DNA of 64,000 nucleotides from Fulvivirga imtechensis AK7. GTDB taxonomy: Bacteria > Bacteroidota > Bacteroidia > Cytophagales > Cyclobacteriaceae. Made by a program: the position numbers and the translations under genes. The notes below the pieces were generated by a model. It was not told the DNA's origin, made no database searches, and was given only the letters and a program-made list of their open reading frames with translations. Shown here piece after piece: positions 1,774 to 20,397 of this stretch (its first letter is position 1; each line of letters begins with the position of its first letter). The stretch lies in the NCBI RefSeq assembly GCF_000331535.1, contig NZ_AMZN01000081.1:1-64000 (forward strand), written 5' to 3'.

Positions 1774-3966
1774 ATGTTAAAAAGATTTCCCCATTACCGG
1801 CAACTTGATACAATGGATTGCGGCCCCACGTGCCTGCGGATCATTGCAAAACACTATGGGAAGAGCTATTCGTTACAAACGCTAAGAGACAAAAGTTATA
1901 TCACCCGGGAGGGGGTTTCATTGCTGGGAATAAGTGATGCCGCTGAATCTATAGGTTTTAGGACCCTCGCAGCCAAAATACCATTCGAAAAGTTAAAAGA
2001 AGAGGCCCCCACACCATTTATTGCTCACTGGAGGCAGCAGCATTTCATAGTAGTTTATGATTTTACCAAAAAACATGTGCTGGTTTCCGATCCTGCACAT
2101 GGACTGGTTAAGCTTACAAAGAAGGAGTTTCTGGACGGATGGTTGAGTGACAGGGATAAAGGTGAAGAAATAGGCGTGGTGTTATTGCTGGAGCCTTCTC
2201 CCGATTTTTATAAAACGGAGGATGAGCAGGTGAACAAATCGGGGTTTAAATTCCTGTTTAAGTACCTCAGACCATATAAAAAATTTATTGTTCAGCTCTT
2301 CCTGGGTATGCTGGTGGGCAGTATCCTACAGTTGATATTTCCTTTTTTGACACAATCAATTGTTGATATTGGTATCCAAAATCAGGATCTGAATTTCGTT
2401 ACGCTCATCCTGATCGCCCAACTGATGTTGTTTTTTAGTCGAACGGCAGTTGAATTTATCCGGGGGTGGATCTTGCTGCATCTGGGCACACGGATGAATA
2501 TCTCCATTTTGTCAGACTTTCTGATAAAGCTCATGAAGCTGCCAGTATCGTTTTTTGATACAAAAATGATAGGTGATCTGCTTCAACGGATAGGTGATCA
2601 CAGCCGTATCGAGTCTTTCCTGACATCTTCCACCTTAAACATTCTGTTTTCGTTTATCAACCTGATCATTTTTGGCATTGTACTGGCCATATATGACCTT
2701 CAGATCTTTGCCATCTTCTTTATAGGGAGCGCTTTATATATGGCCTGGATCATGATCTTCATGAAGAAGCGCAGGGACCTGGATTACAAGCGCTTTGATC
2801 AGATGTCCAGCAACCAAAGTAACCTGATCCAGTTGATCACGGGTATGCAGGAGATCAAGTTGCATAACAGTGAGAAACAAAAGCGGTGGGAATGGGAGAG
2901 GATACAGGCCAAGTTATTCAAAGTAAGCATCAGCGGGTTAGCGCTGAATCAATACCAGCAGGCCGGCTCTTCGTTTATCAATGAATTGAAGAACATTGTG
3001 ATCACCTTCCTGGCAGCCAAAGCGGTGATCGATGGTGATATCACACTCGGTATGATGTTGGCCATTCAATATATTATAGGACAGCTAAATGCGCCCATCA
3101 ACCAGTTGGTGACCTTCATTCATACCGCCCAGGATGCAAAAATAAGCCTGGAAAGACTCGGAGAGATACATAATAAAGAAGATGAGGAGGATATCAGAGA
3201 AGACAAGATCACCATCTTCCCGGAAGACATGTCTCTAAGGCTGGAAAATGTCAGCTTCCAGTATGAAGGGCCCCATTCCGAATACGCTCTTAAGAATATT
3301 AATTTGCAGATACCAGAGGGGAAAGTAACGGCCATAGTAGGAGCCAGTGGCAGTGGAAAAACAACGCTTGTCAAGCTGCTATTGAAGTTTTATGAGCCTT
3401 CGGAGGGTGAGATTCGGCTTGGTGATATAAACCTGAATAATTACAGCAACCGCTTGTGGAGGGATAAATGCGGGGCTGTATTACAGGACGGTTTCATCTT
3501 TTCTGATACCATAGCAAAGAACATCTCCGTTAAAGACGAGTATATTGATAAGGAAAAGCTGTTGTATGCTGTAAAAACGGCTAATATTCAGGAATTTATA
3601 GAATCATTACCACTCGGATACAACACTAAGATTGGAAATGATGGCCATGGACTAAGCCAGGGACAGCGACAGCGTATCCTGATCGCGCGTGCCGTTTACA
3701 AAAACCCGCAGTATATCTACTTTGATGAAGCCACCAATGCACTGGACGCCAACAACGAAAAAGTGATCATGGAAAACCTTGACCGGTTTTTCCAGGGCCG
3801 CACCGTTATTGTAGTAGCACACCGGTTGAGTACTGTTAAGAATGCGGATCAGATAATAGTACTCGACAAAGGACACATCACAGAAACAGGTACTCATGCT
3901 GAGCTAACTGCTAAAAGAGGGGATTACTATCGTCTTGTTAAGAATCAGTTGGAGTTGGGGAACTAA
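1774..3966 (+). CDS. Peptidase-containing ABC exporter (C39 family)
   Basis: A 730-residue bacteriocin/lanthipeptide-type exporter that should cut double-Gly leaders and pump the product out. The N-terminal C39 cysteine peptidase shows Gln10, catalytic Cys16 in MDCGPTC, His90 and Asp106. Residues about 165-440 form the six-helix membrane domain. The ATPase has the Walker A GASGSGKT at 523-530, the signature LSQGQRQR at 627-634 and a Walker B ending FDEATNALD. All catalytic residues are present, so the protein looks active. It is the only exporter of this type in the window and is the likely partner of the HlyD adaptor at 12533, more than 8 kb away. The start gives the standard compact C39 N-terminus. 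A short hairpin terminator follows the stop codon. Confidence 0.95.
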   Translation: MLKRFPHYRQLDTMDCGPTCLRIIAKHYGKSYSLQTLRDKSYITREGVSLLGISDAAESIGFRTLAAKIPFEKLKEEAPTPFIAHWRQQHFIVVYDFTKKHVLVSDPAHGLVKLTKKEFLDGWLSDRDKGEEIGVVLLLEPSPDFYKTEDEQVNKSGFKFLFKYLRPYKKFIVQLFLGMLVGSILQLIFPFLTQSIVDIGIQNQDLNFVTLILIAQLMLFFSRTAVEFIRGWILLHLGTRMNISILSDFLIKLMKLPVSFFDTKMIGDLLQRIGDHSRIESFLTSSTLNILFSFINLIIFGIVLAIYDLQIFAIFFIGSALYMAWIMIFMKKRRDLDYKRFDQMSSNQSNLIQLITGMQEIKLHNSEKQKRWEWERIQAKLFKVSISGLALNQYQQAGSSFINELKNIVITFLAAKAVIDGDITLGMMLAIQYIIGQLNAPINQLVTFIHTAQDAKISLERLGEIHNKEDEEDIREDKITIFPEDMSLRLENVSFQYEGPHSEYALKNINLQIPEGKVTAIVGASGSGKTTLVKLLLKFYEPSEGEIRLGDINLNNYSNRLWRDKCGAVLQDGFIFSDTIAKNISVKDEYIDKEKLLYAVKTANIQEFIESLPLGYNTKIGNDGHGLSQGQRQRILIARAVYKNPQYIYFDEATNALDANNEKVIMENLDRFFQGRTVIVVAHRLSTVKNADQIIVLDKGHITETGTHAELTAKRGDYYRLVKNQLELGN

Positions 3967-3991
3967 AAAAGCAGACAAACTGCCTGCTTTT
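3967..3991. terminator. Bidirectional hairpin terminator
   Basis: An 8-bp stem, AAAAGCAG (3967-3974) pairing with CTGCTTTT (3984-3991), with a 9-base loop; A-rich on one side and T-rich on the other. It begins 1 base after the exporter stop codon and also lies just past the stop of the convergent precursor gene at 4023-4166, so it can serve both. Confidence 0.65.
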
Positions 3992-4022
3992 AAGTCTGGA
4001 AGCGGAATCATCTTAGTGCTTC

Positions 4023-4166
4023 TCAGTTTTCTGCGTTCTGAGAATCACTGTCAGAGGAAACTGATGTAGTAACTACATGTGTGCTGAGTCCTCCTTTGAT
4101 GTGTTGCCCATCAATTGAAGTAACAAAACTTTTAATACGTAGTTTTTCAAGTGTTAGCTTTTTCAT
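4023..4166 (-). CDS. Cys-free lanthipeptide-like precursor, 47 residues
   Basis: A short gene found by reading the minus strand between the exporter and the first kinase. Its N-terminus MKKLTLEKLRIKSFVTS matches the leaders of the four larger precursors here: Lys-rich start, Leu at spaced positions, Ser-Phe-Val-Thr. It continues to a double Gly (IKGG) that suits the neighbouring C39 peptidase. The predicted 21-residue core has six Ser and three Thr but no Cys. Such a core could be dehydrated by the LanB pair but could not form its own lanthionine rings. Alternatives are a product carrying only dehydroamino acids, a decayed precursor, or a signal peptide that talks to the kinase next door. It lies 117 bp downstream of the kinase gene and could share its transcript. 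The real end is well defined by TGA at 4023-4025. Confidence 0.75.
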   Translation of the reverse strand: MKKLTLEKLRIKSFVTSIDGQHIKGGLSTHVVTTSVSSDSDSQNAEN

Positions 4167-4283
4167 ATCTATTAGGTTGTAATGGTTAATTAACTTAATT
4201 TCTTATAGAGAATATTTGGAAAAGAAAATGACAATAAAATTATCATATTTCTGGAGTAATTTCATCACCATAATGTAGCATTT

Positions 4284-6302
4284 TTAAATATCACTGTTTT
4301 CGGGGATATGAGCTTGTGGTTGTAGCTGTGACTTATCCTTTTTTAGTAATAAGTCAATTATAACGGTGGTGCCCTTTCCAGGAATAGAATCAATAACAAT
4401 TTGACCACTTAGCGCCAGTACCCTTGACCGGATGTTCTTTAAACCTATACCATCGGCAGGTCGATTGTTTGCGAAACCCGTCCCATTATCTTCAACCATA
4501 AGGTTAATATAATCATCATGTTTAGTGAGGTAAATACTGATCTCTGAAGGATTGCCATGTTTGATAGCATTGGTAACCAATTCTTGTACTATTCTATAAA
4601 TGTCGATTTGAATGTTTTTGTTAATGTTTTCAAGTTGTCTTTTTGGGTAAAATTCGTAAGTCACTGATATTGACCGAGCCTTGATCATTTTATTAACAAA
4701 ATCTTCTATGATGTCGGTCAATGCTGAATTATAAAATACCGGAGGAACCAGGTTGTGAGATATAGTTCTGACTTCTTCGCAAGTATTGTCAATTCTTTTT
4801 ATAATATCTAATATTTGGTCTTTGAAAGGTGTTTCGTTATTGCTTAGTTTAAGCAGGTTCATTTTAATGCTGGCCATTGTTCCACCTATGCCATCGTGCA
4901 GTTCCTGTGCAATTCGTTTTCTCTCATTTTCCTGCCCTTCAAGTTTATTTTTAATTGAACTGAGCTCCTGGTCTTTCAATAGATCTGTAATTTTCTGTCG
5001 GCTGATCTTTTCTTTTTGTCTGTGGATTAGCCTGATGGTTTTTTGTTTATTTTTATAATTAATAAATATTAAAATAAAGGATATAATAAGGAGAGCTGTT
5101 CCTGCAATCAGAGAGTATAGGATAATGTTCTTTTTTTCGGCTTCATGCTGGAGTAGAGCAATTTTTTGTTCACTTTGCTCTGCCTCGAACCGTTGTTCCA
5201 TTAATAAGAGCTCTCTATTTTGCTCGATGGATGATAAGCTATCTTTTAGCAGGGAAAATTTTAAGTAATAATTATAAGCTTTATGGTAGTCGGCTTGTTC
5301 TGCATGGAGGCTGGATAGGTTTTGGTAGTATTCCAGTTCCAGGTCTTTTAATGAATGTGCTGATGCTAATTTCAAACCCTGCTCCAAATACTCATATGCT
5401 TCAGATCTACGAATCTGTTCTTTCCGAAGTATCCCCAGGTAAAGTAATGCAGAAGATAATAGCTTAGGGTGCGAGTTTTTTTCGGCATAGGTCACAACTT
5501 GAGTTAAGTATTTATCGGCCTGTCTGAAGTTTTTGAGTTTCGCATGAGTTTCGCCTATGTTCATTATTCTGATAGGTATTTGCTCTTCAGGACCGTGCAC
5601 TTTTAACATATCAAGAGAGCTCATAAAATAATTTAAGGCCTCCTCGTACTCTTTTCTTTTAAAATAGCAAATGCCTATATTATTTAATGCGACCGTAATT
5701 TGATCAAACCGGTTGACTTTTTCGAATATTTCGAGCGCTTCTCTGTAGTATTTAAGAGCAGTTTCATGCTCTCCCCTTTTTGTGTAAAAAGCACCTATGC
5801 GATTCAAACTGGCACCTATTCCACTAGGGAACGGGACTTCTTTGAATATTTTCAAAGCCTGGGTGTAAGTCTGAAGCGCTAAGCCATAATTACCAAGATC
5901 CAGGTAGATAGAACCTAACAGGTTATAACACTTGCCCAGATCGATTTTCATGTTATTTGCTTTCGCAAACTCTATAGCTATATCACAGTAGTATTTAGAA
6001 GAGTCGAGTTCACTTAATTGATAATGTAATAGTGCTCTTGTTATAGTACTCAACTGCTGGTGAGCTTGGAGATCTGAGATTTTACTTAAGTGTATGGCTC
6101 TGTCACTTAAGTCAATGGCTCTTTCTGTGTCAGAATATACCAGAAGTTGAGACAATGCATTAAGCGCATTTACTTTTATTGAATCATGGGTATCCTGAGC
6201 CAGGATAGCATTTAAACTATCAATGGACCTATTTTGCCCAACTAAAGTACCCACATGCAGCAGTGCGCATACATATAGTGTTATTCTAAAAGGTGTCCAC
6301 AT
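4284..6302 (-). CDS. TPR sensor histidine kinase (HisKA_3, NarL-type partner)
   Basis: A 672-residue membrane sensor. It has an N-terminal signal segment (residues 1-22), an extracytoplasmic region of tetratricopeptide repeats (about 40-350), a coiled segment and a single membrane helix (about 392-415). Behind these lies a HisKA_3 dimerisation/phosphoacceptor domain with His469 in RIAQELHDGIGG, then a HATPase with NAIKHG, DNGTGF and GIGLKNIRSRV. Kinases of this type phosphorylate NarL/LuxR-type regulators. No regulator gene adjoins it. The closest is at 10751-11407, next to a paralogous kinase of almost the same length, so the two may share one regulator. Its position beside precursor and exporter genes suggests control of the lanthipeptide island. 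Confidence 0.92.
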   Translation of the reverse strand: MWTPFRITLYVCALLHVGTLVGQNRSIDSLNAILAQDTHDSIKVNALNALSQLLVYSDTERAIDLSDRAIHLSKISDLQAHQQLSTITRALLHYQLSELDSSKYYCDIAIEFAKANNMKIDLGKCYNLLGSIYLDLGNYGLALQTYTQALKIFKEVPFPSGIGASLNRIGAFYTKRGEHETALKYYREALEIFEKVNRFDQITVALNNIGICYFKRKEYEEALNYFMSSLDMLKVHGPEEQIPIRIMNIGETHAKLKNFRQADKYLTQVVTYAEKNSHPKLLSSALLYLGILRKEQIRRSEAYEYLEQGLKLASAHSLKDLELEYYQNLSSLHAEQADYHKAYNYYLKFSLLKDSLSSIEQNRELLLMEQRFEAEQSEQKIALLQHEAEKKNIILYSLIAGTALLIISFILIFINYKNKQKTIRLIHRQKEKISRQKITDLLKDQELSSIKNKLEGQENERKRIAQELHDGIGGTMASIKMNLLKLSNNETPFKDQILDIIKRIDNTCEEVRTISHNLVPPVFYNSALTDIIEDFVNKMIKARSISVTYEFYPKRQLENINKNIQIDIYRIVQELVTNAIKHGNPSEISIYLTKHDDYINLMVEDNGTGFANNRPADGIGLKNIRSRVLALSGQIVIDSIPGKGTTVIIDLLLKKDKSQLQPQAHIPENSDI

Positions 6303-6740: not shown

Positions 6741-6980
6741 ATGCAAACCCAAATAACGATGAAACGCTTGCAAGAATTGATGAAAGAGATCCATGATCTT
6801 ACTTTAAAAATAGAGGAACAATATCCCGAGCTTTATCGACATCTGGACGAAAATCCTGCTACTATTTCCAGGGGCGAGCATTCTCAGATTGACACCAAAA
6901 ACTTTTCTGACTATCTTGAGAGCTTGAAAGCGCTTCTGGCGCATGTTGCTAACCATCAGAGAGAAATAGCTACTGAATGA
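6741..6980 (+). CDS. Conserved small hypothetical protein
   Basis: About 79 residues, mostly helical and charged, with a central YPELYRHLDENP segment and a second helix DYLESLKALLAHV. I recognise the type as small conserved Bacteroidota proteins without known function. It overlaps the following nuclease gene by four bases (ATGA at 6977-6980), so the two are translationally coupled and probably act together. The first ATG is at 6741, with a second candidate at 6759; a TTG at 6735 is also in frame. Function unknown; an accessory or antitoxin-like role for the nuclease is only a guess from the coupling. Confidence 0.7.
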   Translation: MQTQITMKRLQELMKEIHDLTLKIEEQYPELYRHLDENPATISRGEHSQIDTKNFSDYLESLKALLAHVANHQREIATE

Positions 6981-7813
6981 CCGCTGTAACCATAACAAAG
7001 ATGTCCGGAGAGAAGGATGCATTTGATGTATTTAAGCTCAAACATTCTCTTGAAAAATCTGGTGCGGGTGATGAATTAGTGAGAAAGATCATAGAGGAGG
7101 TAAAATCTTCACTTTACGAGGGTATATCAACTAAGAAAATCTATAAACAGGCTTTTAGCCTGCTGCGCAAAAACTCACGGCCTGCGGCTGCACGGTATGC
7201 ACTGAAAAAAGCCATCATGGAACTGGGACCCACGGGATACCCCTTTGAAAATTTCATAGGGGAGATCCTTAAATATCAGGGGTTTCTGGTTAAGGTGGGG
7301 GTAATAGTAAAAGGACACTGTGTCAATCATGAAGTTGATGTAATAGCTGAGAAAGGTACAAAACATTTTATGGTGGAATGTAAATTTCACAGGGATCAGG
7401 GAAGACATTGTGATGTAAAAGTTCCATTATACATTCATTCCCGGTTTAAGGATATCGAAAGGCAGTGGAAAAAGCATCCTGATCATGAATCTAAAATTCA
7501 TCAAGGGTGGATATTTACTAATACGCGTTTTACAAGCGATGCTATTCAGTATAGCAGTTGTATGGGGCTAGCGCTCGTTGGCTGGGATTACCCTAGAAAA
7601 GGGAGCCTTAAAGAGCGAATTGATATTGCAGGGCTGCATCCCGTGACATGCCTGACTACGCTAACGCGACATGAAAAGCAGTTGCTTCTGGAGAAGAATA
7701 TAGTTCTTTGCAGGCAATTGGATAGTCAGTCTCAGCTTTTAAGTGAGATAGGGGTAGTAAAAGCCCGCCACTCTGCCGTAATTAAAGAAGTGGAGGGGCT
7801 TGCTATAGTTTAA
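6977..7813 (+). CDS. ATP-cone domain fused to a PD-(D/E)XK nuclease
   Basis: A 278-residue protein. Residues about 1-90 look like an ATP-cone (nucleotide-sensing) domain, with the typical start TITKMSGEKDAFDVFKLKHS and the later SRPAAARYALKKA. The middle is a restriction-endonuclease-like fold: Asp121 in HEVDVIAEKG and Glu134/Lys136 in VECKFHRDQG fit the PD-(D/E)XK metal site of Mrr/YraN-like enzymes. The C-terminal 70 residues are helical. This suggests a nuclease gated by nucleotide binding, possibly in DNA repair or defence. It is coupled to the small gene before it. It stands on the strand opposite to the flanking kinase and precursor genes, so it is probably a separate unit within the island. 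Confidence 0.82.
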   Translation: MTAVTITKMSGEKDAFDVFKLKHSLEKSGAGDELVRKIIEEVKSSLYEGISTKKIYKQAFSLLRKNSRPAAARYALKKAIMELGPTGYPFENFIGEILKYQGFLVKVGVIVKGHCVNHEVDVIAEKGTKHFMVECKFHRDQGRHCDVKVPLYIHSRFKDIERQWKKHPDHESKIHQGWIFTNTRFTSDAIQYSSCMGLALVGWDYPRKGSLKERIDIAGLHPVTCLTTLTRHEKQLLLEKNIVLCRQLDSQSQLLSEIGVVKARHSAVIKEVEGLAIV

Positions 7814-7936: not shown

Positions 7937-8167
7937 TTATGGGATCATCCCATCACAAGGTTGAATGGTATAACACAACTGCGGATTATCAGTAAATTGA
8001 CAGCCGTCTGAATAACAGCACCCACTGTAATCTGTCGGCTTGCAGTGACTGTCACTTCGGTTATCACTGATCGAGCCTTTGTCACCACCATTGATGTTTC
8101 TCTGCGATTCTGAAGTAATAAAACTGCTTATTTTTAATTGTTTAAGGGTGAATTTTTTCTTTTTCAT
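7937..8167 (-). CDS. Cys-rich lanthipeptide-like precursor 1
   Basis: A 76-residue precursor. The leader starts MKKKKFTLKQLKISSFITS and ends in INGG; the 48-residue core has six Cys and many Ser/Thr. The leader matches the Bacteroidota class I lanthipeptide leader type (Lys-rich, spaced Leu, Ser-Phe-Ile-Thr). Its C-terminal YTIQPCDG is shared with precursor 2 (YSIQPCDG), while the core middle differs, which indicates duplication followed by divergence. The gene is separated from precursor 2 upstream by a MITE-like repeat. Expected processing is Ser/Thr dehydration by the split LanB, ring closure by the LanC-like enzyme, and leader removal by the C39 exporter. Confidence 0.88.
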   Translation of the reverse strand: MKKKKFTLKQLKISSFITSESQRNINGGDKGSISDNRSDSHCKPTDYSGCCYSDGCQFTDNPQLCYTIQPCDGMIP

Positions 8168-8354: not shown

Positions 8355-8355
8355 C

Positions 8356-8610
8356 TTAGTAGGGCTGTCCATCACATGGCTGTATGCTGTAGCAATCACT
8401 GATGTTGTTAGTGCAAATAAACTCTGTGTGGCATGTACAACTTACACAACTATCGCAACTACAGAAGCTTTGGTCAGAATGATTTTTAGGACAGTCGCTA
8501 TCACTTCTTCTATCTGCTATAGAATTTCCTGCGTGTAGCTGACGTAGCACATCCGTTGTAATAAAACTTTCTATCTTAAGTTTATTAAGACTTAATTTTT
8601 TCTTTTTCAT
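8356..8610 (-). CDS. Cys-rich lanthipeptide-like precursor 2 (nine Cys)
   Basis: An 84-residue precursor with leader MKKKKLSLNKLKIESFITT and a predicted cut after LHAG, a Gly-Ala variant of the double-Gly site. The core of about 56 residues contains nine Cys, including the dense run CSCDSCVSCTC, and many Ser/Thr. The end, YSIQPCDGQPY, parallels precursor 1 but the last residues differ. The stop codon lies directly against the MITE-like repeat at 8208-8354, which may explain the changed tail. A palindrome (8665-8686) sits about 55-75 bases upstream and could be its operator. Confidence 0.87.
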   Translation of the reverse strand: MKKKKLSLNKLKIESFITTDVLRQLHAGNSIADRRSDSDCPKNHSDQSFCSCDSCVSCTCHTEFICTNNISDCYSIQPCDGQPY

Positions 8611-8712: not shown

Positions 8713-10743
8713 TCAGGCATTTATACCATCTCTCAATTCTACTTGCCGAGTGGAGAAGTTCCAATGTTGATACGGAATATCGATACTTACGGCAGTCCCT
8801 CTACCGGGTTTTGAATCAAAATGAATAATACCATTTAGTGCGTTGACTCTTGAAGAAATATTCTGCAACCCTATTCCTTTTATATTTTGAGAAGGTATGT
8901 ACCCTTTACCATCATCCTCCACAATAAGGTTAATGATGTGATCATGCGCAGTTATTGTTATTTCTACATGAGATGCTTCTGCATGTTTGGTGATATTAGT
9001 GACCAACTCCTGAACGATACGATAAAGATCTACCTGTAGGTCAGTGGAAATATTGTTTAAGGTTTTTTCAGGATAAAACTCAAGGTTTACGTTGATTTTA
9101 TGACGATTTAGACTCTTCTCAACGAAGTCACGGATAATATCTGTCAGGGCCGAGTTAAAAAAAGCAGGTGGGGCTAAATTGTGAGATACAGTCCTCACTT
9201 CCTCACAGGCTTTATCAATGTCGTTTATCAAATCGGTTAATCTTTCGTCTTTGACCTTTTGCAGGTTGAGTTTAATGGACGCCAGGGTGCCACCAATACC
9301 ATCATGTAGTTCCTTGGCAATTCTCTTTCTTTCGTTTTCCTGTCCCTCTAGTTTGCCATGAATGGATTTTAGCTGTTGCTCTTTTAGCAGCTCGGATATA
9401 CGCTGCCTGTTGAGCTCTTCATTTTTTTCATTAATAAGACGAGAAGCTCTGGATCTTCTTTTATAATCATTAACTATCAGAATAATTAAGATGAGGAATA
9501 GTACCAGGCCTGTGATAGAAGAATAAAGGATAATATCCTTTTTTTCACTTTGACTCTTCAATAGAGAAATTTCTTTTTCTTTTTCCGATACTCGATATTT
9601 TGCCTCTATTTCTGCTATATCATGGCTTCTTTCAATATTAAAGAGGCTGTCTTTCAGATGATGATACGCTACATTAGCATCGTAGGCATCTTTAAACCGT
9701 CTTAGACCATAGTATGTATTTGACAGGTTTCTATAAATTTCAGGTGCAACTTCTTTCTCTCCGGTTTCCGCAGCCAACCGCAGTGCTCTTTGTAAATAGG
9801 TAAATGCTGAATCAAATTCACTCTTGCCTATTTTGGTTTCTCCAAGTTGGTTTAGAGTATACAACTGAAGGTTTTTGTTTCCGGATGCTTCACAGGCCTT
9901 TAGGGCACTGGTCAGGTACACTGAAGCGCTATCATAATCTTTCCATTCTTTATGAATTTTTCCTATGTTGATGTCTCTGATAGAAATGTTGATACTATCA
10001 CCGGTTTTAATAAGCAAGGCTTTCGATCTTTGATAATGCTCCAAAGCCTTGTCCAGTTGCTGAGTTTTATGATAAACTACGCCAATATTATTTATTACAA
10101 TAGCTTGTTGGCGAGGTCCGCCAATGCGCTGGTGATAATCCAGGGCCTTTTGATAGTATTTCAGCGCTTTGTCGTACTCCTGTTGTGTTTCATAAAAAAT
10201 TCCAAGTTTGTTACAAACAGCGGCTACTCCTCCTTTGTCATTGTCGTCTTCAAAAATTCTCAATGCACTCAGATAATTTGACAACGCTCTTTTCCTGTTA
10301 CCTAAAGTTTGATATGTAACCCCCAGGCGGTTCATGATTTTAGCTGAAAGTACTTTGTTACCGCTTTCCTGACTAATTATGAGGGCTTGCTCACAATATA
10401 CATATGTGCTATCATAGCTGCCCAGTTGAAAAGCATGAAGTGACATATTGTAAAGTGCCGTGGCTTTTCCGATATCATAGCCGTTTTTCTCACTCAAGGA
10501 TAACGCCTTTTGACTGTATTCTTGCGAAAGGTTGTAATCAATATCAAGAGCAGAGTAACTTAGTTCATTTAAAATGTCAATTTCGGATTCAATATCTTTT
10601 GCGTTCTGCAACTCTTTTTTTAGGCTATCTATTCTTTCTGAATTGGTGCTTTGAGCCTGCAGAGAACCGTTGATCAGAAAAAGCAAAACCGAAACATACC
10701 GGGTTGCCCGAATTAAATACAGGTGTGATTTGTTCATGGCCAT
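8713..10743 (-). CDS. TPR sensor histidine kinase, paralogue of the 4284-6302 kinase
   Basis: A 676-residue sensor with the same build as the kinase at 4284-6302: signal segment ending near SLQAQ (residue 31), TPR repeats (about 60-350), one membrane helix (about 403-424), HisKA_3 with His480 in RIAKELHDGIGG, and a HATPase with NITKHA, DDGKGY and GIGLQNISSRV. It lies 7 bp behind the NarL-type regulator gene, so the two form an operon and a two-component pair. Many kinase-domain blocks are identical between the paralogues, while the TPR sensor parts differ more, as expected if they read different signals. Start is ATG at 10743; a second ATG two codons later is equally possible. Confidence 0.93.
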   Translation of the reverse strand: MAMNKSHLYLIRATRYVSVLLFLINGSLQAQSTNSERIDSLKKELQNAKDIESEIDILNELSYSALDIDYNLSQEYSQKALSLSEKNGYDIGKATALYNMSLHAFQLGSYDSTYVYCEQALIISQESGNKVLSAKIMNRLGVTYQTLGNRKRALSNYLSALRIFEDDNDKGGVAAVCNKLGIFYETQQEYDKALKYYQKALDYHQRIGGPRQQAIVINNIGVVYHKTQQLDKALEHYQRSKALLIKTGDSINISIRDINIGKIHKEWKDYDSASVYLTSALKACEASGNKNLQLYTLNQLGETKIGKSEFDSAFTYLQRALRLAAETGEKEVAPEIYRNLSNTYYGLRRFKDAYDANVAYHHLKDSLFNIERSHDIAEIEAKYRVSEKEKEISLLKSQSEKKDIILYSSITGLVLFLILIILIVNDYKRRSRASRLINEKNEELNRQRISELLKEQQLKSIHGKLEGQENERKRIAKELHDGIGGTLASIKLNLQKVKDERLTDLINDIDKACEEVRTVSHNLAPPAFFNSALTDIIRDFVEKSLNRHKINVNLEFYPEKTLNNISTDLQVDLYRIVQELVTNITKHAEASHVEITITAHDHIINLIVEDDGKGYIPSQNIKGIGLQNISSRVNALNGIIHFDSKPGRGTAVSIDIPYQHWNFSTRQVELRDGINA

Positions 10744-11758: not shown

Positions 11759-12022
11759 TTATTGATTTAAAAGTGTGTCAATAGATTCTATTCCGTCTAA
11801 TATTTGCGTACTATAGCTATCGTAAATGAGAGACCCCGCATAAAACCCCACACCAAAAGCAGCGCCTAAAGCTATCCCCGTACCGAGTATTCTTATGGCT
11901 CCATGATGAGTTATCTCACCTAGTGTGCCAATCCAGGATATAGGATCAGTAGTTCCCCCGGTAAGATCCTTTACCTGCTGAGCCTTTAATTCAAATGATT
12001 TTAAGTTTTCTAAAGTTTTCAT
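11759..12022 (-). CDS. Double-Gly leader peptide with hydrophobic glycine-rich core
   Basis: An 87-residue peptide between two lanthipeptide precursors. Its leader MKTLENLKSFELKAQQVKDL followed by TGG resembles the Bacteroidota GG-type natural-product leader (spaced Leu, FEL, double Gly), not the Ser-Phe-Ile-Thr leader of its neighbours. The core of about 64 residues has no Cys and carries a hydrophobic stretch with repeated small residues (GTGIALGAAFGVGFYAG), like class II two-peptide bacteriocins or a small membrane immunity peptide. The C39 exporter could process it. A bacteriocin, an immunity protein or a helper for export are all possible; sequence alone does not decide. Confidence 0.78.
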   Translation of the reverse strand: MKTLENLKSFELKAQQVKDLTGGTTDPISWIGTLGEITHHGAIRILGTGIALGAAFGVGFYAGSLIYDSYSTQILDGIESIDTLLNQ

Positions 12023-12043: not shown

Positions 12044-12298
12044 TTATTTCTGCTGTTGCGTAGTTGTGCCGTCACATATGCCAGAAGCTCCACCTCCGGT
12101 ATCCCCGCATAAGTCGGTCATGCAGGTATTCGAACAAAGACAAGTAACGATGCACAACTCCGAATAGGGTAGTGGCTCGCAATTGCCGTATGCAGAAATA
12201 GGTGCTCCACCTTTTATGGTTTGTGCCTTTAACCTTTCCTCAGTTGTTATAAAGCTTTTAAGCTTCAATGCCTCTAATTTTAATTTTTTCTGCTTCAT
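12044..12298 (-). CDS. Cys-rich lanthipeptide-like precursor 4
   Basis: An 84-residue precursor with leader MKQKKLKLEALKLKSFITT ending in IKGG, and a 53-residue core holding seven Cys (CIVTCLCSNTC in the middle) and a Gly-rich tail. It is the first gene of the operon that continues with the GG-leader peptide (21 bp gap) and precursor 3. Upstream lies the 12437-12471 palindrome, shared with the divergent HlyD gene. Confidence 0.87.
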   Translation of the reverse strand: MKQKKLKLEALKLKSFITTEERLKAQTIKGGAPISAYGNCEPLPYSELCIVTCLCSNTCMTDLCGDTGGGASGICDGTTTQQQK

Positions 12299-12532: not shown

Positions 12533-13831
12533 ATGCCTGAACAACAAAATGATATTCAATTAAGGAGCGAGGAAGTACAGGAGATTCTTAGCCATGTACC
12601 ACACTGGCTGATCAGATGGGGGATTACCGTCATACTTATGGTGATCCTGATCTTGATAGCTGCCAGTTGGTTCATTAAGTATCCTGATACTGTGGCCGCT
12701 CGCGTAGTTTTCACTACCGAAGTGCCGCCAGTACATCTGATGGCACGGACTAATGGAAGAATTACGCTGATGGTGAGTGATAAAGAGCAGGTTAACAAAG
12801 ATGATTTGCTGGCAGTAATTGAAAACCCGGCTTCGACCAAAGACATACTTCAACTAAGCCGGTCTCTGGATAGTATACGAAGTATAATTTATAAAAGGCC
12901 TGTTGAATTGGGAAAAATTCAAATGGATAAATCACTCTCCCTGGGGGCACTTCAGAATATATATTTATCCTTCACATCTGTAATTGATGATGCCAAAAGA
13001 TTTTCCTCCATTTCTTTTTATAAAAATCAGCGGGAAGCCCTGGCTAATCGAGTGCAGTATTATGTGGAGCTAAACCGGGGTTTAGAGGATCAGATGGATC
13101 TTCTGGCAGAAGAGATAGAGCTTTCACAAGAGCTTTATGAGGGAGATTCTACCCTATACTCTCAAAGGTCTGGCACCAAACCTGAGATGTATCGGGCAAA
13201 AGCCAATTATTTGCAAAGTAAGCGCAATAAGGAAAGTTTACAGTCATCCATTATTCAAAACAACATTCAGATAGCCCAACTGAAAGCCCAGATCGATGAA
13301 CTTCGGCTGAAAGAAGAGCAGGAAGCTGACCAGTTGCAAGCCGGTATTGTTGCCGCCTATGAAAAGCTGGAAAGTGAATTGATTGGATGGAAGCAAAACT
13401 ATCTGCTGATTAGTCCTATCGATGGTAAGGTGTCATTTTCCAAATTCTGGAGTGATAATCAATTCGCTCAGGCCGGAGAAGAGGTGATGATCGTAGTACC
13501 AAATTCTGAAGACATCATTGGTACGGTAGCTATGCCGGTGCAAGGATCCGGAAAAGTAGAAATAGGGCAAAAAGTGAATATTCAGATTGATAACTATCCT
13601 TCCAATGAATATGGCATGGTGATAGGACAAGTAGAATCTATCTCGCTGGTTCCAAGAGATAACATGTATAGCATTAGAATATCCATGCAAAATGGGTTGG
13701 TGAGTACATACAAAAAAGAGCTGGCATTCAAACAGGAGATGCAGGGTACTGCTGAGATCATTACAGAGGATAAGCGCCTCATTGAAAGAGTATTTAATCA
13801 ACTTCGAAATATCATTGACAGGGTCAACTAG
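12533..13831 (+). CDS. HlyD-family periplasmic adaptor
   Basis: A 432-residue membrane fusion protein. One N-terminal membrane helix (about 27-48) is followed by a lipoyl/barrel half (VHLMARTNGRITLMV), a long coiled coil (about 100-290) and the second barrel half (LISPIDGKVSFSKFW). It should join an inner-membrane exporter to an outer-membrane channel. The C39 exporter at 1774-3966 is the natural partner, and both genes share an upstream 13-mer. Unusually, the two genes are separated by the precursor and kinase genes. No TolC-like gene lies in the window, so a genomic outer-membrane channel must be used. The stop codon overlaps the left end of a palindromic repeat. Confidence 0.92.
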   Translation: MPEQQNDIQLRSEEVQEILSHVPHWLIRWGITVILMVILILIAASWFIKYPDTVAARVVFTTEVPPVHLMARTNGRITLMVSDKEQVNKDDLLAVIENPASTKDILQLSRSLDSIRSIIYKRPVELGKIQMDKSLSLGALQNIYLSFTSVIDDAKRFSSISFYKNQREALANRVQYYVELNRGLEDQMDLLAEEIELSQELYEGDSTLYSQRSGTKPEMYRAKANYLQSKRNKESLQSSIIQNNIQIAQLKAQIDELRLKEEQEADQLQAGIVAAYEKLESELIGWKQNYLLISPIDGKVSFSKFWSDNQFAQAGEEVMIVVPNSEDIIGTVAMPVQGSGKVEIGQKVNIQIDNYPSNEYGMVIGQVESISLVPRDNMYSIRISMQNGLVSTYKKELAFKQEMQGTAEIITEDKRLIERVFNQLRNIIDRVN

Positions 13832-14385: not shown

Positions 14386-17300
14386 ATGGGTAACACATTA
14401 ACAACCTATACCACTAACAGCAAAAAATCTATGGAATTGTTTCCGTATACTCTTATCAGATTAGGAGGAGATACGTATGAACAATGGTCCGCACTCCATT
14501 TCCCGAAGTCCAACTCTATAGTAGAAGAGATATTTGAATTACGATCTGAACAGCAGCAAAAAAAAGAGCTTCTGTGCGATGAATTGTTCAACTTCATTAG
14601 CGGTAGCGATGACCCCAATGTTCAAAACGTAGTTCAAAACCTGCGAAGGGATATATTTAATGAAAGAAAACTCAAAAACAGCAAAGTAGCCAAAACTCTG
14701 GAAGTAGTGCCTGAAAGTCTGAAGGCCTCACTGGAAGAATACCTGAGTTTAGTTAAGAAATTAAAGGAAAAGGAGCAATCAGGTGAAGATCTGTACATTG
14801 CGGAGCTCAACAATGGTCGAATCATTTTGAAAGACATTGTAGATACAGAGCACTTAAAGAAAGGATTGATCCTCTCCAGTCGTACACTGCTTAATAGGCT
14901 CGATTCCTTTAAAGAACGTCCCGTAGACCAATTCAGAAAGAAAGAATACCAGGTGGAGCAGAGTCTGCTACAGTACCTGACCAGGATGTACGCAAAGACT
15001 TCTCCGTTTAGCACATTCACCAATTTGTCGATAGGGAGGATAGAAGAAAATGTTGAAGGAGGTATCCACATCACATCCTTAAACGCCAGGGAGCAGGTAA
15101 AAGGGCATATGCGTCTTAATAACTACTTGTTGAAATACCTGGTAGACCTCCTTAGAAATTATAAGCCTGCCTACATGCTTTTTCCATTGAGGTGTAATCC
15201 TACGCTTCAAAACAGAGGTGATCACTTTTTATACCTGACCAATAACAACAATATTGAATCATTTCAGCGTATTCCCTACAATCCTGTGGTGGAACATATT
15301 GCCGGATTAGTGCAGGAACAGGCTGACGGGATCCGGTTTCAGCAGCTTGTTGAGGCATTGCAAAATGATATTGATGCTTCTGCGGAAGAGCTTGAAAATT
15401 ATGTGCAACAGCTCATTGGCTATGGACTGCTGGAGTACCATCTGGGAGTTTCCGGTGTTGATCCTGATTGGGATATTAGGCTTATCGAAGCACTATCCAC
15501 TTTGGTGGAAAACAATGTAGAACACATTGATGAGCTGATACAAAAGTTAAGGGATATCCGCGAATTAGGCGACAGGTATGCGGGTAGCGCTGTAGAGGAG
15601 AGGAAAACTATTCTTCAGCAGGCATATGATACTTTTCGGGAGATATGCATGAAAATACATGAGGAGGCGGGGCTACCGGCCGATGAAAGAAAAACTGAGC
15701 AGGAACGCCTGGAGGAGTGGAGAGCAAAAAGGGAAGAAGAAAAAAAGAAACAGAAAGAGGAAAATAAAGACGGGGATGAAAAAAAGGAAGAAGAGGCCAA
15801 AGAAGAGGAGAAGGAAGATGAGGAAGTAACCTTTAAACATGAAACATCCACCATGTTTACCTTCAAGCCGGAACAGATGTTCTATGAAGATACAACACGT
15901 GAGGTCAAGGCGAGGCTGGATAAGCAGGAAATGGAACATGTCATAGAAAGTTTGTATGAGCTACTACATGAAATGCGACTTTTCCAGGGAAATCAGGACG
16001 AAAAGGACAAGATGAAGGCCTATTTTCTGAAGAAATATGGAGGCAATGAGGCTATAGATCTGCTTACTTTTTATGAAGATTACTTCAGAGAGTATAAAAA
16101 GCCTGAAAAGGAGCAAGAGGAAAGGAGAAAAAAGCAGGCCAGGGAACAAAGGGAACTGAAGGAAAAGGAAGCCAAAGCTAAAGAAGGTGAAAGTGACAAC
16201 AGTAAAGATAATGCTGAAGCTCAGAAGCAAACGGAGGATGAAATTTCAGTCTTACCTGAGATCAAACAAAGAAATGAGCTGGTAGAAAAGTGGAAAAAGG
16301 CGCTGGTAGATGAACTGAAAACCATCACTGAATGGAATGAAGATGAACTGAAGATTGAACTTGAGCCGGTAAAAAAGGCCAATAGTGAGGTAGGAGTTGG
16401 CAGCGGTGTAGATCACACCAATTCATACGGCTCTTTTCTGCAGTTTTTCCATGAAGAGGGCAAATTGAAAGCCGTAGTGAACAGTACCTTCCCCGGCTAC
16501 GGTAAAATGATCAGCCGTTTTCTACATATTTTTGATAAGGAGGTGACTGAGCAAACCAGGAGCTGGAATATTGAGCAGAGTAATGGTGAAACTATCTTCG
16601 TTGAAGATTGTGACGCCTCCTATTTCAATGCCAACCTGCACCCCACACTCATGCCGTATGAGATATGGATGCCCGGGGGGCATAATTCGTTGCCAGCGGA
16701 TAAACAGATCCCGATCACAGATTTCGAGATCATTTATGATCAGGAAGAAGGAGCGCTTAACCTTCATCAGAAGTCAACCGGTAAAAAGGCCCATGTCTTT
16801 GATCTCGGTTTTCAAGGGCACCAGGGAAGGTCTCAGTTGTTTCAATTGCTGGAAAAATTCACGAAAGCAGAATACCTGTTTACACAACCGTTAACCAACG
16901 CTATCAATCAATTGAATGCCCCGGAGCAGGATGAAAAGAAGAAGGTTAATGATGCTGATAAACAGAAAGAAGCGCAGAATAGCACACCGACTATTAATGT
17001 GCTGCCTAGAATAGTCTATAAAGATCTGCTTGTGCTTCAGAGGAAGTCATGGTTTGTTCCCAAGCCGCTCCTTCCTCAGCGTGACCCCAACGATTCGGAC
17101 TGGCAGTACTTCAAGAAGGTAAATTTATGGAGGAAAGAGAATAAGATGCCTGATGAAGTATTTGTTTTTGTAAATCCCAGCCGCTGGGGCATGGAGAACC
17201 TGGATCAGGAAAAACTAAAAAAACTTACTAGAGACGATTATAAGCCTCAATATATCGATTTTACTAACCCATTGTTGGTTAACCTACTGGAGAAACTAAT

Positions 17301-17427
17301 AGATAGGGTGCCATTGAGTATGAAGGTGGTAGAAATGTTGCCATCATCCAACCAGATGCTTAAGGTGGATGATTCGAGGTATGTTTCTGAGTTTGTAGTT
17401 CAGTGGTATAATAAAAATCAACAGTAA
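14386..17427 (+). CDS. Split lanthipeptide dehydratase, glutamylation subunit (LanB N-terminal)
   Basis: A 1013-residue protein of the lantibiotic dehydratase N-terminal type, which uses glutamyl-tRNA to activate Ser/Thr of the precursor. The family start is visible (FPYTLIRLGGDTYEQW), as is the signature YAKTSPFSTFTNLSIG near residue 203 and DFTNPLLVNLLEKL near the C-terminus. The elimination domain is absent and is encoded by the next gene, as in pinensin-like and thiopeptide systems. Two low-complexity, highly charged Lys/Glu inserts (about residues 445-480 and 570-620) lengthen the protein and look like flexible linkers. It starts the operon LanB N, LanB C, LanC; its stop overlaps the next start by one base (TAATG). 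Confidence 0.92.
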   Translation: MGNTLTTYTTNSKKSMELFPYTLIRLGGDTYEQWSALHFPKSNSIVEEIFELRSEQQQKKELLCDELFNFISGSDDPNVQNVVQNLRRDIFNERKLKNSKVAKTLEVVPESLKASLEEYLSLVKKLKEKEQSGEDLYIAELNNGRIILKDIVDTEHLKKGLILSSRTLLNRLDSFKERPVDQFRKKEYQVEQSLLQYLTRMYAKTSPFSTFTNLSIGRIEENVEGGIHITSLNAREQVKGHMRLNNYLLKYLVDLLRNYKPAYMLFPLRCNPTLQNRGDHFLYLTNNNNIESFQRIPYNPVVEHIAGLVQEQADGIRFQQLVEALQNDIDASAEELENYVQQLIGYGLLEYHLGVSGVDPDWDIRLIEALSTLVENNVEHIDELIQKLRDIRELGDRYAGSAVEERKTILQQAYDTFREICMKIHEEAGLPADERKTEQERLEEWRAKREEEKKKQKEENKDGDEKKEEEAKEEEKEDEEVTFKHETSTMFTFKPEQMFYEDTTREVKARLDKQEMEHVIESLYELLHEMRLFQGNQDEKDKMKAYFLKKYGGNEAIDLLTFYEDYFREYKKPEKEQEERRKKQAREQRELKEKEAKAKEGESDNSKDNAEAQKQTEDEISVLPEIKQRNELVEKWKKALVDELKTITEWNEDELKIELEPVKKANSEVGVGSGVDHTNSYGSFLQFFHEEGKLKAVVNSTFPGYGKMISRFLHIFDKEVTEQTRSWNIEQSNGETIFVEDCDASYFNANLHPTLMPYEIWMPGGHNSLPADKQIPITDFEIIYDQEEGALNLHQKSTGKKAHVFDLGFQGHQGRSQLFQLLEKFTKAEYLFTQPLTNAINQLNAPEQDEKKKVNDADKQKEAQNSTPTINVLPRIVYKDLLVLQRKSWFVPKPLLPQRDPNDSDWQYFKKVNLWRKENKMPDEVFVFVNPSRWGMENLDQEKLKKLTRDDYKPQYIDFTNPLLVNLLEKLIDRVPLSMKVVEMLPSSNQMLKVDDSRYVSEFVVQWYNKNQQ

Positions 17428-18440
17428 TGACTTCAGATCAATCAAAAAAATGGCTGGCTGCTTATTTATATTACGGTGAGCCCTGGGAGGAATTTCTTGT
17501 AAAAGGTGTGCAGCCCATCGTTCGTCAGGTGATGGATGATCAACTCGCAGAGCAATATTTTTTCATCAGGTACTGGGAGAAGGGTCCTCATATCAGGCTC
17601 CGGTTTAAAGGTAAAGCCCATGTGCTGGACGAAAAGGTAAAGCCCATGCTGATAGAACATTTCAATGCATGGTTTGATAAGCATCCTTCTGAAAGAACCG
17701 ATCCCGACTGGCTGAAAGATGCCCCGGAGGAACACCGATGGTTTCCCAATGATTCCATACAATTCATTGAATATGATCCTGAAACCGATCGATATGGCGG
17801 CAAGGAAGCTATACTGGTTGCAGAGCAGCAGTTTCAGGCCTCTGCAAATTCCACTTTTGCCGTTATAGAGGAGAGCCTGGATAGCTGGGACTACAACAGG
17901 GCTCTGGGAGCAGCCATACAATTACACCTCGGTTTTGCCTATGGGATGGGGATGGACCAGGAGGAAGCTACACACTTCTTTTCCAATGTATTTCAGAACT
18001 GGCTACCCCGAGCCTACTACTTTTTTGAGAAGGACGTTTCAAAGGAAGAGATGGAGAAAAGAAGAGCAGAAACATTGCAGGCATTTGAGAGCAATTTTGA
18101 AGCACATAAAGATACCTTGCTTCCCTTTTTTCAGACCGTTTGGGAGGCATTTGAAGAAGAGCAGTCCTTTGACCAGGAATGGCTGAACCAATGGATAGCA
18201 GATATGCGCGAGATCAGGGAACAGCTTGTGAAAATTCAACAAAATGGGCAGTTGGTGATCCCCGAATGGTACCAGGCCAGAGAGTCGGATTCCATTCCTG
18301 AGCAGAAAACAAAACGCTGGGCTATCTATGACAGTTATATCCATATGATCAACAACAGAATGGGTATTATGAACAGAGATGAGGGGTATCTGGCTTATCT
18401 GGTGAGAGAAAGTTTTAAATTATTACCTGAACCTAAGTAA
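17427..18440 (+). CDS. Split lanthipeptide dehydratase, elimination subunit
   Basis: A 337-residue protein of the thiopeptide-type bacteriocin biosynthesis / Lant_dehydr_C family. It is expected to remove glutamate from the activated Ser/Thr, leaving dehydroalanine or dehydrobutyrine. The N-terminal family pattern is clear: WLAAYLYYGEPWEEFL, then FFIRYWEKGPHIRLRF (about residues 46-61), with Arg and His residues typical of this domain. The length matches stand-alone members. The gene overlaps the preceding dehydratase gene by one base and is followed after one base by the cyclase gene, so the three products are likely made in a fixed ratio and may form a complex. Confidence 0.93.
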   Translation: MTSDQSKKWLAAYLYYGEPWEEFLVKGVQPIVRQVMDDQLAEQYFFIRYWEKGPHIRLRFKGKAHVLDEKVKPMLIEHFNAWFDKHPSERTDPDWLKDAPEEHRWFPNDSIQFIEYDPETDRYGGKEAILVAEQQFQASANSTFAVIEESLDSWDYNRALGAAIQLHLGFAYGMGMDQEEATHFFSNVFQNWLPRAYYFFEKDVSKEEMEKRRAETLQAFESNFEAHKDTLLPFFQTVWEAFEEEQSFDQEWLNQWIADMREIREQLVKIQQNGQLVIPEWYQARESDSIPEQKTKRWAIYDSYIHMINNRMGIMNRDEGYLAYLVRESFKLLPEPK

Positions 18441-18441
18441 A

Positions 18442-20397
18442 ATGAACCAAAAATATTTACAAGGCGCTATTGCCATTGGCGATTCCCTGCTTGCGAAAGC
18501 ACACAAAAATGAAGACGGATATTGGTGGGAGACGATGTCGTTAGGCGCTGACAGCCAGGCTGAATGGCATATTTCCGAAAGCCTTTATTCCGGGGTGGCC
18601 GGAATAGTCTACTTTTTTATGGAATTGCACAAAAGGACCAACGATCCGAAATACCGGGAAGCGATGGTGGAGGGAGCACGATGGCTTGATAAATATTGTA
18701 CGGATAACAAAACTTCCTATTATGCTTTTTATACGGGTCGTATGGGAGTGGCATATCTGATGCTACAACTTGCTGAGTATTTTAAAGATGATACCTATAA
18801 AGAAAAAGCACTTCAGATAGTAGAAAATTGCGAATCGTTTCTAGAAGGCGACCGGTTAATTGATGATCTGATCAACGGAAGTTCAGGGGCTATATTGGGG
18901 CTCTTGCACTTGCATGCCGCAACAGGCAGTGAGAAGATCCTTAAAAAGATAGAGCATTTTACCGAACACCTCCTAAGCAGGGCGCATTTCGGGAAGCAGG
19001 GTCTGTACTGGGACCGTTCGTCTAATAACATCACCGGCCTGTGTGGTTTTTCCCATGGCGCAAGTGGCATTGGTTATGTATTTCTGGAATTAGGCCATTA
19101 TTTCGGAAACCAGACCTTCTATTGGATTGCAGAACAGGCATTTGCTTATGAAAACCACGTTTATAATGCTGAATATGAAAATTGGCCGGACTTTAGAAAG
19201 GGAATCTATGATGAGAAATCTTTTAAAGAGCATCGGGAGCAGTATGTGAATGGCAATAAAGGATTTTTCTTTGCAGCAGGAGATATGTCGGCCTGGTGTC
19301 ACGGAGCGCCTGGTATCGGTCTGTCAAGGGTGCGAGCATATGAATTGCTGAAAAAGGATCAATATCTTCAGGATTTGTATAAAGCACTAAGTAAAACTAC
19401 CAAAGTAAGTGTAGACCTGGAAGAGCTAAATGTCCCGTATGTTCTATGTCACGGGGGAGGAGGGAATGCCATCCTGTTTCTTGAGGCAGCCAGAGTTTTA
19501 GGCAAACCTGATTATTATCAGTCTGCAATAAAAGTAGCTGACCATGCATTGAGGTATAAAGAGCAAAATAATATTTATATCTCAGGTTATTCCGGTCTTC
19601 GTGGTGATGTCAGCTTGTTTATGGGAGATGCAGGGATAGGATATTTTTATCTTTTATTGGCTGATGAAGCTCTTTCCGGCCCTTCGATTTTGAAACCAGA
19701 CATTGCTGCTGTTTACCAGGGCCCAAAGGAGGGACTGTTGGATATGAATGACAGTAAACTGTATCAGATCTTTGCAGAAAAGTTATATCCAAAAACCTGT
19801 GAGTATTTGAGAAGTCACGAGCTTATGGAAGCTGATATGATTTTAAGCGATAATATTGTTGCTACGATCAAAGCCGATCTGAACAAGGCCGTGGAAACGG
19901 CTAACAACCCTCAGTTGACTCACATCTGGAGGTATGAAAACATGAAAATCGATATAGATAATGCCGTAGCAAGCCATTCATACAATCATATAAAGAGAGT
20001 GGTGGAGGTAGAAAGGAATAGAGCGCTTTTAGATGACGGGCAATCATTCTTAGGGGCCACGGTCATGCTGCCTGAAGGATGTGTTTTGACGGTGGCTCCT
20101 TTACAGGCTAAACAGGAAGAGGAGGATGAGGAAGAAAACTATACGATCTTACTGCCTGCATCAGAAGGACTGCTGGAGTTTCCATTGAATTATTTTTCGT
20201 ATGCTGTAATACAAAAATTTGAGCAACCCAAACGAGTCGAAGAAGGTATGAATGAAATGATTGAAGAGTTTGAAGTAAGCAATGAAAGTGAAATACAGCA
20301 GGTGAAAATGGCTACGCTAAACCAAATTAAGGAGGCCATGAAGCAGGGGATACTTCAGTTGGACCACTCTGCGGTAGCTAATGTGGACATAAAGTAG
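18442..20397 (+). CDS. LanC-like lanthionine cyclase with C-terminal extension
   Basis: A 651-residue protein. Residues 1 to about 420 are a LanC-type alpha/alpha barrel with the expected zinc ligands: Cys286 in AWCHGAPGIG, and Cys336 and His337 in VLCHGGGGN. His205 in GFSHGASGIG takes the place of the catalytic His of NisC. It should close thioether rings between Cys and dehydrated Ser/Thr. Typical LanC proteins have about 400-450 residues, so some 220 residues at the C-terminus are extra. This part has an acidic spacer (KQEEEDEEEN near 555), beta-like stretches (TVMLPEGCVLTVAP) and a helical end, and I do not recognise it. It could bind the leader or the dehydratase. Last gene of the biosynthetic operon. 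Confidence 0.92.
   Translation: MNQKYLQGAIAIGDSLLAKAHKNEDGYWWETMSLGADSQAEWHISESLYSGVAGIVYFFMELHKRTNDPKYREAMVEGARWLDKYCTDNKTSYYAFYTGRMGVAYLMLQLAEYFKDDTYKEKALQIVENCESFLEGDRLIDDLINGSSGAILGLLHLHAATGSEKILKKIEHFTEHLLSRAHFGKQGLYWDRSSNNITGLCGFSHGASGIGYVFLELGHYFGNQTFYWIAEQAFAYENHVYNAEYENWPDFRKGIYDEKSFKEHREQYVNGNKGFFFAAGDMSAWCHGAPGIGLSRVRAYELLKKDQYLQDLYKALSKTTKVSVDLEELNVPYVLCHGGGGNAILFLEAARVLGKPDYYQSAIKVADHALRYKEQNNIYISGYSGLRGDVSLFMGDAGIGYFYLLLADEALSGPSILKPDIAAVYQGPKEGLLDMNDSKLYQIFAEKLYPKTCEYLRSHELMEADMILSDNIVATIKADLNKAVETANNPQLTHIWRYENMKIDIDNAVASHSYNHIKRVVEVERNRALLDDGQSFLGATVMLPEGCVLTVAPLQAKQEEEDEEENYTILLPASEGLLEFPLNYFSYAVIQKFEQPKRVEEGMNEMIEEFEVSNESEIQQVKMATLNQIKEAMKQGILQLDHSAVANVDIK

Follow-up and report, generated by a model that had tools for sequence, protein, structure and literature searches.

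The closest described relatives of the system reported here are the pinensins and the cyanobacterial prochlorosins. Prochlorosin precursors number up to 79 per strain and can be scattered over the genome, according to the accessible part of PMC10783134, and the accessible part of PMC11251773 gives them conserved leaders and Cys-Cys-Cys (CCC) zinc sites. Cluster-based mining undercounts them since precursors are counted near the enzymes, as stated in the available portion of a survey of >100,000 genomes (PMC7268733). Within the genus Fulvivirga, F. kasyanovii 48LL is credited with two clusters for ribosomally synthesized and post-translationally modified peptides (RiPPs) in the available portion of PMC12565237. 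Here, we studied positions 1-64,000 of contig NZ_AMZN01000081.1 of Fulvivirga imtechensis AK7 (the window, all 64,000 nucleotides), which holds an island of lanthipeptide genes at 1774-20397. We suggest, with a probability of about 0.75, that this island provides the enzymes and the export machinery for a pinensin-family class I lanthipeptide system, acting as a hub for many substrates in trans. A preliminary description of the same DNA had taken it for a pinensin-type class I island with its own five precursors; that interpretation was partly supported: the kind of system was correct, but its extent was underestimated.

Leaders and cores within and beyond the island

We identified precursors with the NF038180 leader_pinensin model at its cut-off of 24 bits. 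In the AK7 genome (labelled G000; labels in G, C and L stand for genomes, contigs and loci), 31 leaders passed the cut-off; five of them are in the window, and the other 26, called orphans below, are spread over 18 further contigs. The common leader reads roughly L..L+V.SFVT...TIKGG. The single leader type described for the five island precursors held for all of them (24.3-43.1 bits), with one borderline case: precursor 8356-8610 barely passes, its match covers only model positions 1-16, and it ends with AG in place of GG. It had also been proposed that one enzyme set modifies at least four Cys-rich cores and one Cys-free core. The cores are indeed distinct (6, 9, 5 and 7 Cys, and none), and the proposal understated the case, as the genome has 31 pinensin leaders and this was the sole enzyme set of its type to be found.

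The own genome contains one split LanB and one LanC of pinensin type, and the genome-wide LanC count covers this genome only. PF04738, PF14028 and PF05147 matched in the window and on contig C9 only, and a whole-genome profile search placed no LanB or LanC near any orphan, other RiPP enzymes beside orphans not being searched systematically. The C9 locus (L044 4930-9657) is a second class I lanthipeptide set made of a DUF805b element, an L1-like precursor, a short LanC and a LanB. Its LanB and LanC are of the fused type, its LanB lies in two frames in this assembly (851 and 217 amino acids), and its precursor, which reaches none of the three cut-offs, scores better with the L1a/L1b leaders than with the pinensin leader.

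The cores of the 31 own precursors are rich in Cys (12.4% vs. 0.7% in the long open reading frames (ORFs) of the same loci) and in Ser/Thr (18.3% vs. 11.9%). Cys was present in 30 of the 31, the sole exception being window 4023-4166, and all own leaders together contain one Cys. In G013, 28 of the 30 cores read contain Cys. Paralogous cores differ widely by eye, and the core run LGTRGGCTxWEN recurs in G072 and G013. Comparison with G072 gave 11 precursor pairs, which involve ten G072 genes and include one own member under the leader cut-off. These pairs show that their cores are under purifying selection: the proportion of nonsynonymous differences (pN) was 0.166 in cores and 0.167 in leaders, and that of synonymous differences (pS) was near 0.8, with synonymous sites near saturation. 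The flanking genes also match at five G072 loci.

Across genomes, leaders and the elimination half of the dehydratase (LanB-C, PF14028) go together. No leader passed the cut-off in 14 control genomes, and at least 4 of the 395 genomes of a phylum sample, own included, had leaders, the counts in that sample being lower bounds. Leader matches were found in eight of the 60 genomes of a family sample (31, 86, 40, 19, 7, 6, 3 and 1 matches) and in nine of the 15 genomes of a genus sample (31, 22, 19, 14, and five with 1). PF14028 was present in 7/8 and 9/9 of these leader genomes, respectively, vs. 5/52 (one under cut-off) and 0/6 of those lacking leaders. Taken as 73 distinct genomes, 14 of 15 with leaders had PF14028 vs. 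5 of 58 without (Fisher p 4e-10, uncorrected for kinship). Leader matches range from 1 to 87 per genome, and the stand-alone LanB-C stays constant at one. G013, searched alone, has 87 leader matches at E up to 0.001, 81 of them over the cut-off, and one LanB-C. Its main contig carries 86 matches in 55 groups more than 10 kb apart, with no departure from a uniform distribution (Kolmogorov-Smirnov p 0.71), and just one of these 86 is less than 20 kb from LanB-C. In G072, which is a single contig, 19 leaders form 13 groups and three are within 20 kb of LanB-C. The many-leader genomes G013, G048 and G072 each have a single PF14028 place, the stand-alone one.

The island, its enzymes and its gene order

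Profile searches against Pfam and NCBIfam confirmed the genes named before within 1774-20397 as open frames with the expected domains (Table 1), including the two-protein LanB, whose PF04738 and PF14028 domains lie on two ORFs. The two halves are also on separate ORFs in the relatives where both were recovered. LanB-C residues align with NisB R784, R786, E823, R826 and H961, which we take to be the catalytic residues of elimination, and the corresponding R57, R59, E119, R122 and H306 are invariant in 14 aligned sequences. For LanB-N, the nearest solved structure was 6ec7, a Lantibiotic dehydratase domain protein (E 2e-20), presumably TbtB. LanC keeps WCHG and LCHG, which aligned with LicM2 give a Cys-Cys-His (CCH) zinc site, found in 10 of 13 aligned LanCs, that of the window included. 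The active-site alignment proposed earlier as a check thus favored the island, whose enzymes look active in their sequences because the residues examined, those of LanB-C and LanC, are kept. The best NCBIfam model for LanC was TIGR03897 (LanM), under its cut-off; pinensin-type LanCs are described as LanM-related in the available portion of PMC7268733.

LanC also runs for about 240 residues past its Pfam domain, an extension that is common to all 13 aligned LanCs. The predicted structure of the last part of this extension is of fair confidence (predicted local distance difference test, pLDDT, 84.8) and shows strands followed by three helices. In a fold search, the top six Protein Data Bank matches were PqqD, four TbiB1 chains and MibB, with E-values of 0.018-0.17 and none at 0.001; the TbiB1 match is to a structure with leader peptide, and MibB is a dehydratase. 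The top profile match of the extension in the same database was a lasso PqqD protein (E 0.045). The PqqD family of Pfam (cut-off 23.4 bits) matched the F. kasyanovii homologue at 19.7 bits (E 0.0011) and the window LanC at 12.9 bits (E 0.14), and gave no match in the other four of the six LanC homologues scanned. We read this end as a candidate RiPP recognition element (RRE) fused to LanC, through which the leader would be bound. The word LanC is absent from the main text of the RRE-Finder paper, and it occurs once in PMC12710340, as a label for PF14028. LanCs lacking the zinc ligands retain the extension as well (G065, G067 and G069; L136 7995-9851, L137 1568-3553 and L139 2409-4301), and are perhaps leader-binding helpers without cyclase activity.

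The transport genes have counterparts next to the split LanB of relatives. The C39 exporter shares 80-93% identity with such homologues in G072, G036, G013, G048, G035 and G066, and 52-73% in G067, G065 and G069. The HlyD-like adaptor shares 41-70% with LanB-adjacent adaptors in most relatives and 23-35% in G065 and G069. In G035, G048, G065 and G069 the genes follow a compact order of C39-ABC, HlyD, LanB-N, LanB-C and LanC (HlyD in two frames in G065), to which G013 adds one precursor before LanC, and G036 and G066 one after the exporter; in G067, LanC is located on the other side. In all eight relatives with both recovered (these seven and G067), C39-ABC and HlyD adjoin or are one precursor apart. 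The two genes are 8.6 kb apart in the island, which agrees with the distance of over 8 kb described before. As a special design, the gap was rejected: it is a local insertion relative to the compact order, shared with G072, where precursor, kinase and regulator genes also separate exporter from adaptor. In G019, two precursors and 6 kb lie between LanB-C and LanC, and its 17-kb contig carries no exporter.

Between exporter and adaptor, the two kinases, the regulator, the five precursors and the GG peptide are all on the minus strand and the ATP-cone/Mrr gene is on the plus strand. Precursors 2 and 3 come after regulator and HK2, precursor 1 comes after HK1, and precursor 5, the GG peptide and precursor 4 follow one another closely, 21 and 3 bases apart. 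HK1 shares 51-52% identity with the equivalently placed kinase of G072 and of F. marina. Besides the 26 precursors elsewhere, features that had gone unnamed are the LanC extension, the GG peptide 11759-12022 and the ATP-cone/Mrr protein 6977-7813. The GG peptide sits tightly between lanthipeptide precursors 5 and 4, has a G-rich, hydrophobic core, and gave no Pfam or NCBIfam match. The ATP-cone plus Mrr-nuclease protein is overlapped by an 81-residue ORF (6735-7813 together, plus strand) and has a weak PADLOC match. The Cys-free precursor 4023-4166 stands near the site at which G072 and F. marina (L127 5772-6396, L015 91-249) encode precursors that contain SEVE/SEVD runs and one or more Cys, and may be a divergent descendant. 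Downstream of LanC, two MacB/FtsX-type permease genes (21439-26307, plus strand) have a possible role in immunity.

Table 1. Features of the island (positions in the window)
Feature	Position	Strand	Basis and remarks
C39-peptidase ABC exporter, LanT-like (cuts at GG, exports)	1774..3966	+	PF03412, PF00664, PF00005
Precursor 1	4023..4166	-	NF038180 37.4 bits; Cys-free core, 9 Ser/Thr
HK1, TPR sensor histidine kinase	4284..6302	-	TPR, HisKA_3, HATPase_c
ATP-cone/Mrr protein	6977..7813	+	Inside island
Precursor 2	7937..8167	-	NF038180 28.6 bits; 6 Cys in core
Precursor 3	8356..8610	-	NF038180 24.3 bits, borderline; 9 Cys in core
HK2, TPR sensor histidine kinase	8713..10743	-	Pfam domains; strand same as precursors 2 and 3
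LuxR-type response regulator	10751..11407	-	Response_reg, GerE; 75% to regulator in G072 and F. marina
Precursor 4	11540..11755	-	NF038180 43.1 bits; 5 Cys in core
Class II bacteriocin-like GG peptide, Cys-free	11759..12022	-	Sequence reading
Precursor 5	12044..12298	-	NF038180 33.6 bits; 7 Cys in core
HlyD-like periplasmic adaptor	12533..13831	+	PF16576 weak, E 2.9e-4
LanB-N, glutamylation half of split dehydratase	14386..17427	+	PF04738, E 8e-37
LanB-C, elimination half of split dehydratase	17427..18440	+	PF14028
LanC cyclase	18442..20397	+	PF05147; related to LanM-type cyclase domains
RRE-like (PqqD-fold) C-terminal domain of LanC, candidate	20029..20370	+	Predicted structure, pLDDT 84.8

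DUF805b elements and the surroundings of the orphans

The RNA element DUF805b (Rfam RF02914) has 12 copies of at least 34 bits in the own genome (L095-L106, at about 1501-1545), the next best match having 17 bits, and none over the gathering score in the window. In 11 of these, a small peptide gene begins about 20-30 bases downstream; it is a pinensin orphan in five cases, a GG- or Cys-bearing peptide in five more, and the C9 lanthipeptide precursor in one. The remaining copy (L103, G000 C2:85850) precedes the gene of a 999-residue subtilase, which carries a secretion-sorting tail and has a pinensin orphan as neighbour. The leader proteases of lantibiotics are subtilases, and a role of this one in maturation is possible. 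A search for a DNA motif shared upstream of all precursors yielded nothing beyond an A-rich run ahead of the start codon and, in 5 of 32, DUF805b.

Five related leader-bearing genomes yielded 29 more copies (E up to 1e-5), of which 15 are directly followed by an NF038180 match by coordinates and two more by eye; the own genome and these five together have a model match after 20 of 41 copies. The leader-less G010, G047 and G012 contain 13 copies. Among the 11 read, eight precede a small ORF, one (in G010) a 223-residue frame, and two have no ORF; the five read in G047 comprise three before small secreted-looking ORFs and two with no ORF nearby. G072 has two copies before secreted-looking frames of 163 and 288 residues, and G000, G072, G036 and G065, all within the genus, have one copy each before a large frame (L103, L172, L167 and L165), with starts similar by eye. 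From these copies in G047, G010, G072, G000, G036 and G065, DUF805b as a RiPP-only element was rejected.

At the structural level, an alignment of 39 of 42 copies (own-genome loci L095-L106 and related-genome loci L160-L189; L173, L175 and L185 left out) revealed a second helix that the Rfam model does not draw. This helix covaries, with 37 cells changed on both sides vs. 10.6 in shuffles and lower values in slid controls, which suggests that DUF805b is an H-type pseudoknot.

We also looked at two-component genes around the 22 loci that hold all 26 orphans, with 20 control stretches chosen by hand on contigs also bearing orphans. Histidine kinases were present at 8/22 orphan loci vs. 2/20 control stretches (p 0.07), and response regulators at 8/22 vs. 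1/20 (p 0.02). The G072 loci, however, scored low (histidine kinases 2/12, response regulators 1/12), which leaves the enrichment as a hint. Other RiPP-like loci of the own genome include a Cys-rich GG peptide before a larger frame that is C39-like by eye (L097, C50:35878), a GG peptide lacking an NCBIfam match before an ATP-grasp-like ORF, grasp-with-spasm by eye (L096, C9:55297), and a GG bacteriocin accompanied by a C39 exporter of its own (L102, C47:59146).

Proposed mechanism, alternatives and comparison with known systems

In the mechanism we propose, the shared leader would dock each precursor, probably via the RRE-like end of LanC and/or LanB-N. Core Ser/Thr would then be dehydrated by the split LanB, through glutamylation by LanB-N and elimination by LanB-C, and LanC would close thioether rings with core Cys. 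The C39 exporter, together with HlyD, would cut after GG and secrete the product. The 26 precursors encoded elsewhere would use the same hub, and we infer that it modifies and exports them despite their distance. In autoinduced lantibiotic loci, precursors stand among kinases and regulator on the same strand; here, autoinduction may run through the TPR kinases, as their families suggest.

Several points weigh against such a hub, which has no known product. The RRE scores are under the Pfam cut-off, the fold E-values are weak (best 0.018), and a profile comparison of the LanC extension with LanB-N gave no match. Orphans score higher on the leader model (up to 53 bits) than island precursors (about 24-44), and a preference of the hub for the former is assumed. 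Some orphans are near two-component genes, and one is near another C39 exporter. Among the relatives, the LanCs of G065, G067 and G069, which have one leader each, are without all three zinc ligands; G022, with 7 leaders, has LanB-C only in a 17.5-kb stretch in which LanB-N, LanC, HlyD and exporter were not found; G037, a fragmented assembly of about 1,300 contigs, gave no PF14028 match alongside its 3 leaders; and stand-alone PF14028 frames also occur in the leader-less G010 and G042.

Some of these points would suit an ordinary multi-precursor pinensin-like cluster, with the five local precursors as its substrates and the dispersed peptides as unmodified GG-leader bacteriocins or substrates of other enzymes or exporters. 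The trans modification is itself inferred, island and orphan leaders score differently, one orphan, at C47, is close to a separate C39 exporter that has a GG peptide of its own, and the search of orphan neighbours for other RiPP enzymes was not systematic. We consider this account unlikely, however, since the whole genome shows no LanB or LanC near any orphan, 14 of the 15 genomes with leaders also have PF14028, and orphan cores are as rich in Cys and Ser/Thr as those of the island. The C9 LanB/LanC pair, a class I set in the same genome, could in principle modify the dispersed precursors. The better match of its precursor to the L1a/L1b leaders and its LanB in two frames make this very improbable, as does the fact that G013, G048 and G072 have many leaders and only the stand-alone PF14028. 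The least probable account takes the scattered precursors for functionless relics of duplication or transposition: the many copies and their lineage-specific numbers (0 to 31 within one genus) would fit it, but the 11 pairs with G072, with pN 0.17 and saturated synonymous sites in leader and core, contradict it for those 11, and flanking genes match at five G072 loci.

The hub acting in trans can be taken further, tentatively and with slightly less than even confidence. The system may be a class I counterpart of the prochlorosins, in which 31 (here) to >80 (G013) conserved lanthipeptides, dispersed along the chromosome, are processed in trans by a glutamyl-tRNA-dependent split dehydratase and an RRE-tethered LanC. 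Some of them would stand under a shared DUF805b pseudoknot, a mark of exported-peptide genes from several RiPP classes, and together they would form a secreted peptide language, not a single antibiotic. Should the hub work in trans, the output of lanthipeptides would be about 6 times that of the cluster here, and far more in G013. It would also offer a naturally substrate-tolerant class I enzyme set for engineering, and a second, independently built case for why one enzyme keeps dozens of substrates, with cores open to comparison between species. DUF805b, for its part, would acquire a role that can be tested.

In the open-access literature, as far as its accessible text goes, we found neither a characterised cluster with the same precursor set, which the preliminary description had named as a check, nor a report of pinensin precursors scattered over a genome; papers behind subscription, among them the pinensin paper and the one on Pedobacter lusitanus, lie outside that search. 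Pinensins of Chitinophaga pinensis (family I 17 in the available portion of PMC7268733) have the same leader family, split LanB, LanM-related LanC, and GG site with C39 protease. They differ from the present system, which has 31 leaders, mostly away from the enzymes, and a kinase/regulator insertion. The split dehydratases of thiopeptides are alike in that 6ec7 is nearest to LanB-N, whereas here the partner is a LanC. RRE/PqqD domains (PqqD, lasso TbiB1, MibB) would share the fold of the LanC C-terminal domain, which differs in being fused to a cyclase. Finally, prochlorosins and synechococsins (ProcM, SyncM) resemble it, in genomic layout only, in having one enzyme set and many dispersed precursors with a shared leader, an arrangement of which prochlorosins are the best-known case. 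Prochlorosins use a class II LanM of the ProcM group, Nif11-family peptides and a CCC site, whereas the system described here has LanB and LanC on separate ORFs, a pinensin leader and a CCH site. Prochlorosin cores are hypervariable; here, paralogous cores differ widely by eye, and the 11 core pairs compared are conserved between species (pN 0.166). In family terms, the system belongs with the pinensin-type class I systems; its architecture would make it work like the prochlorosins, but it is not one of them.

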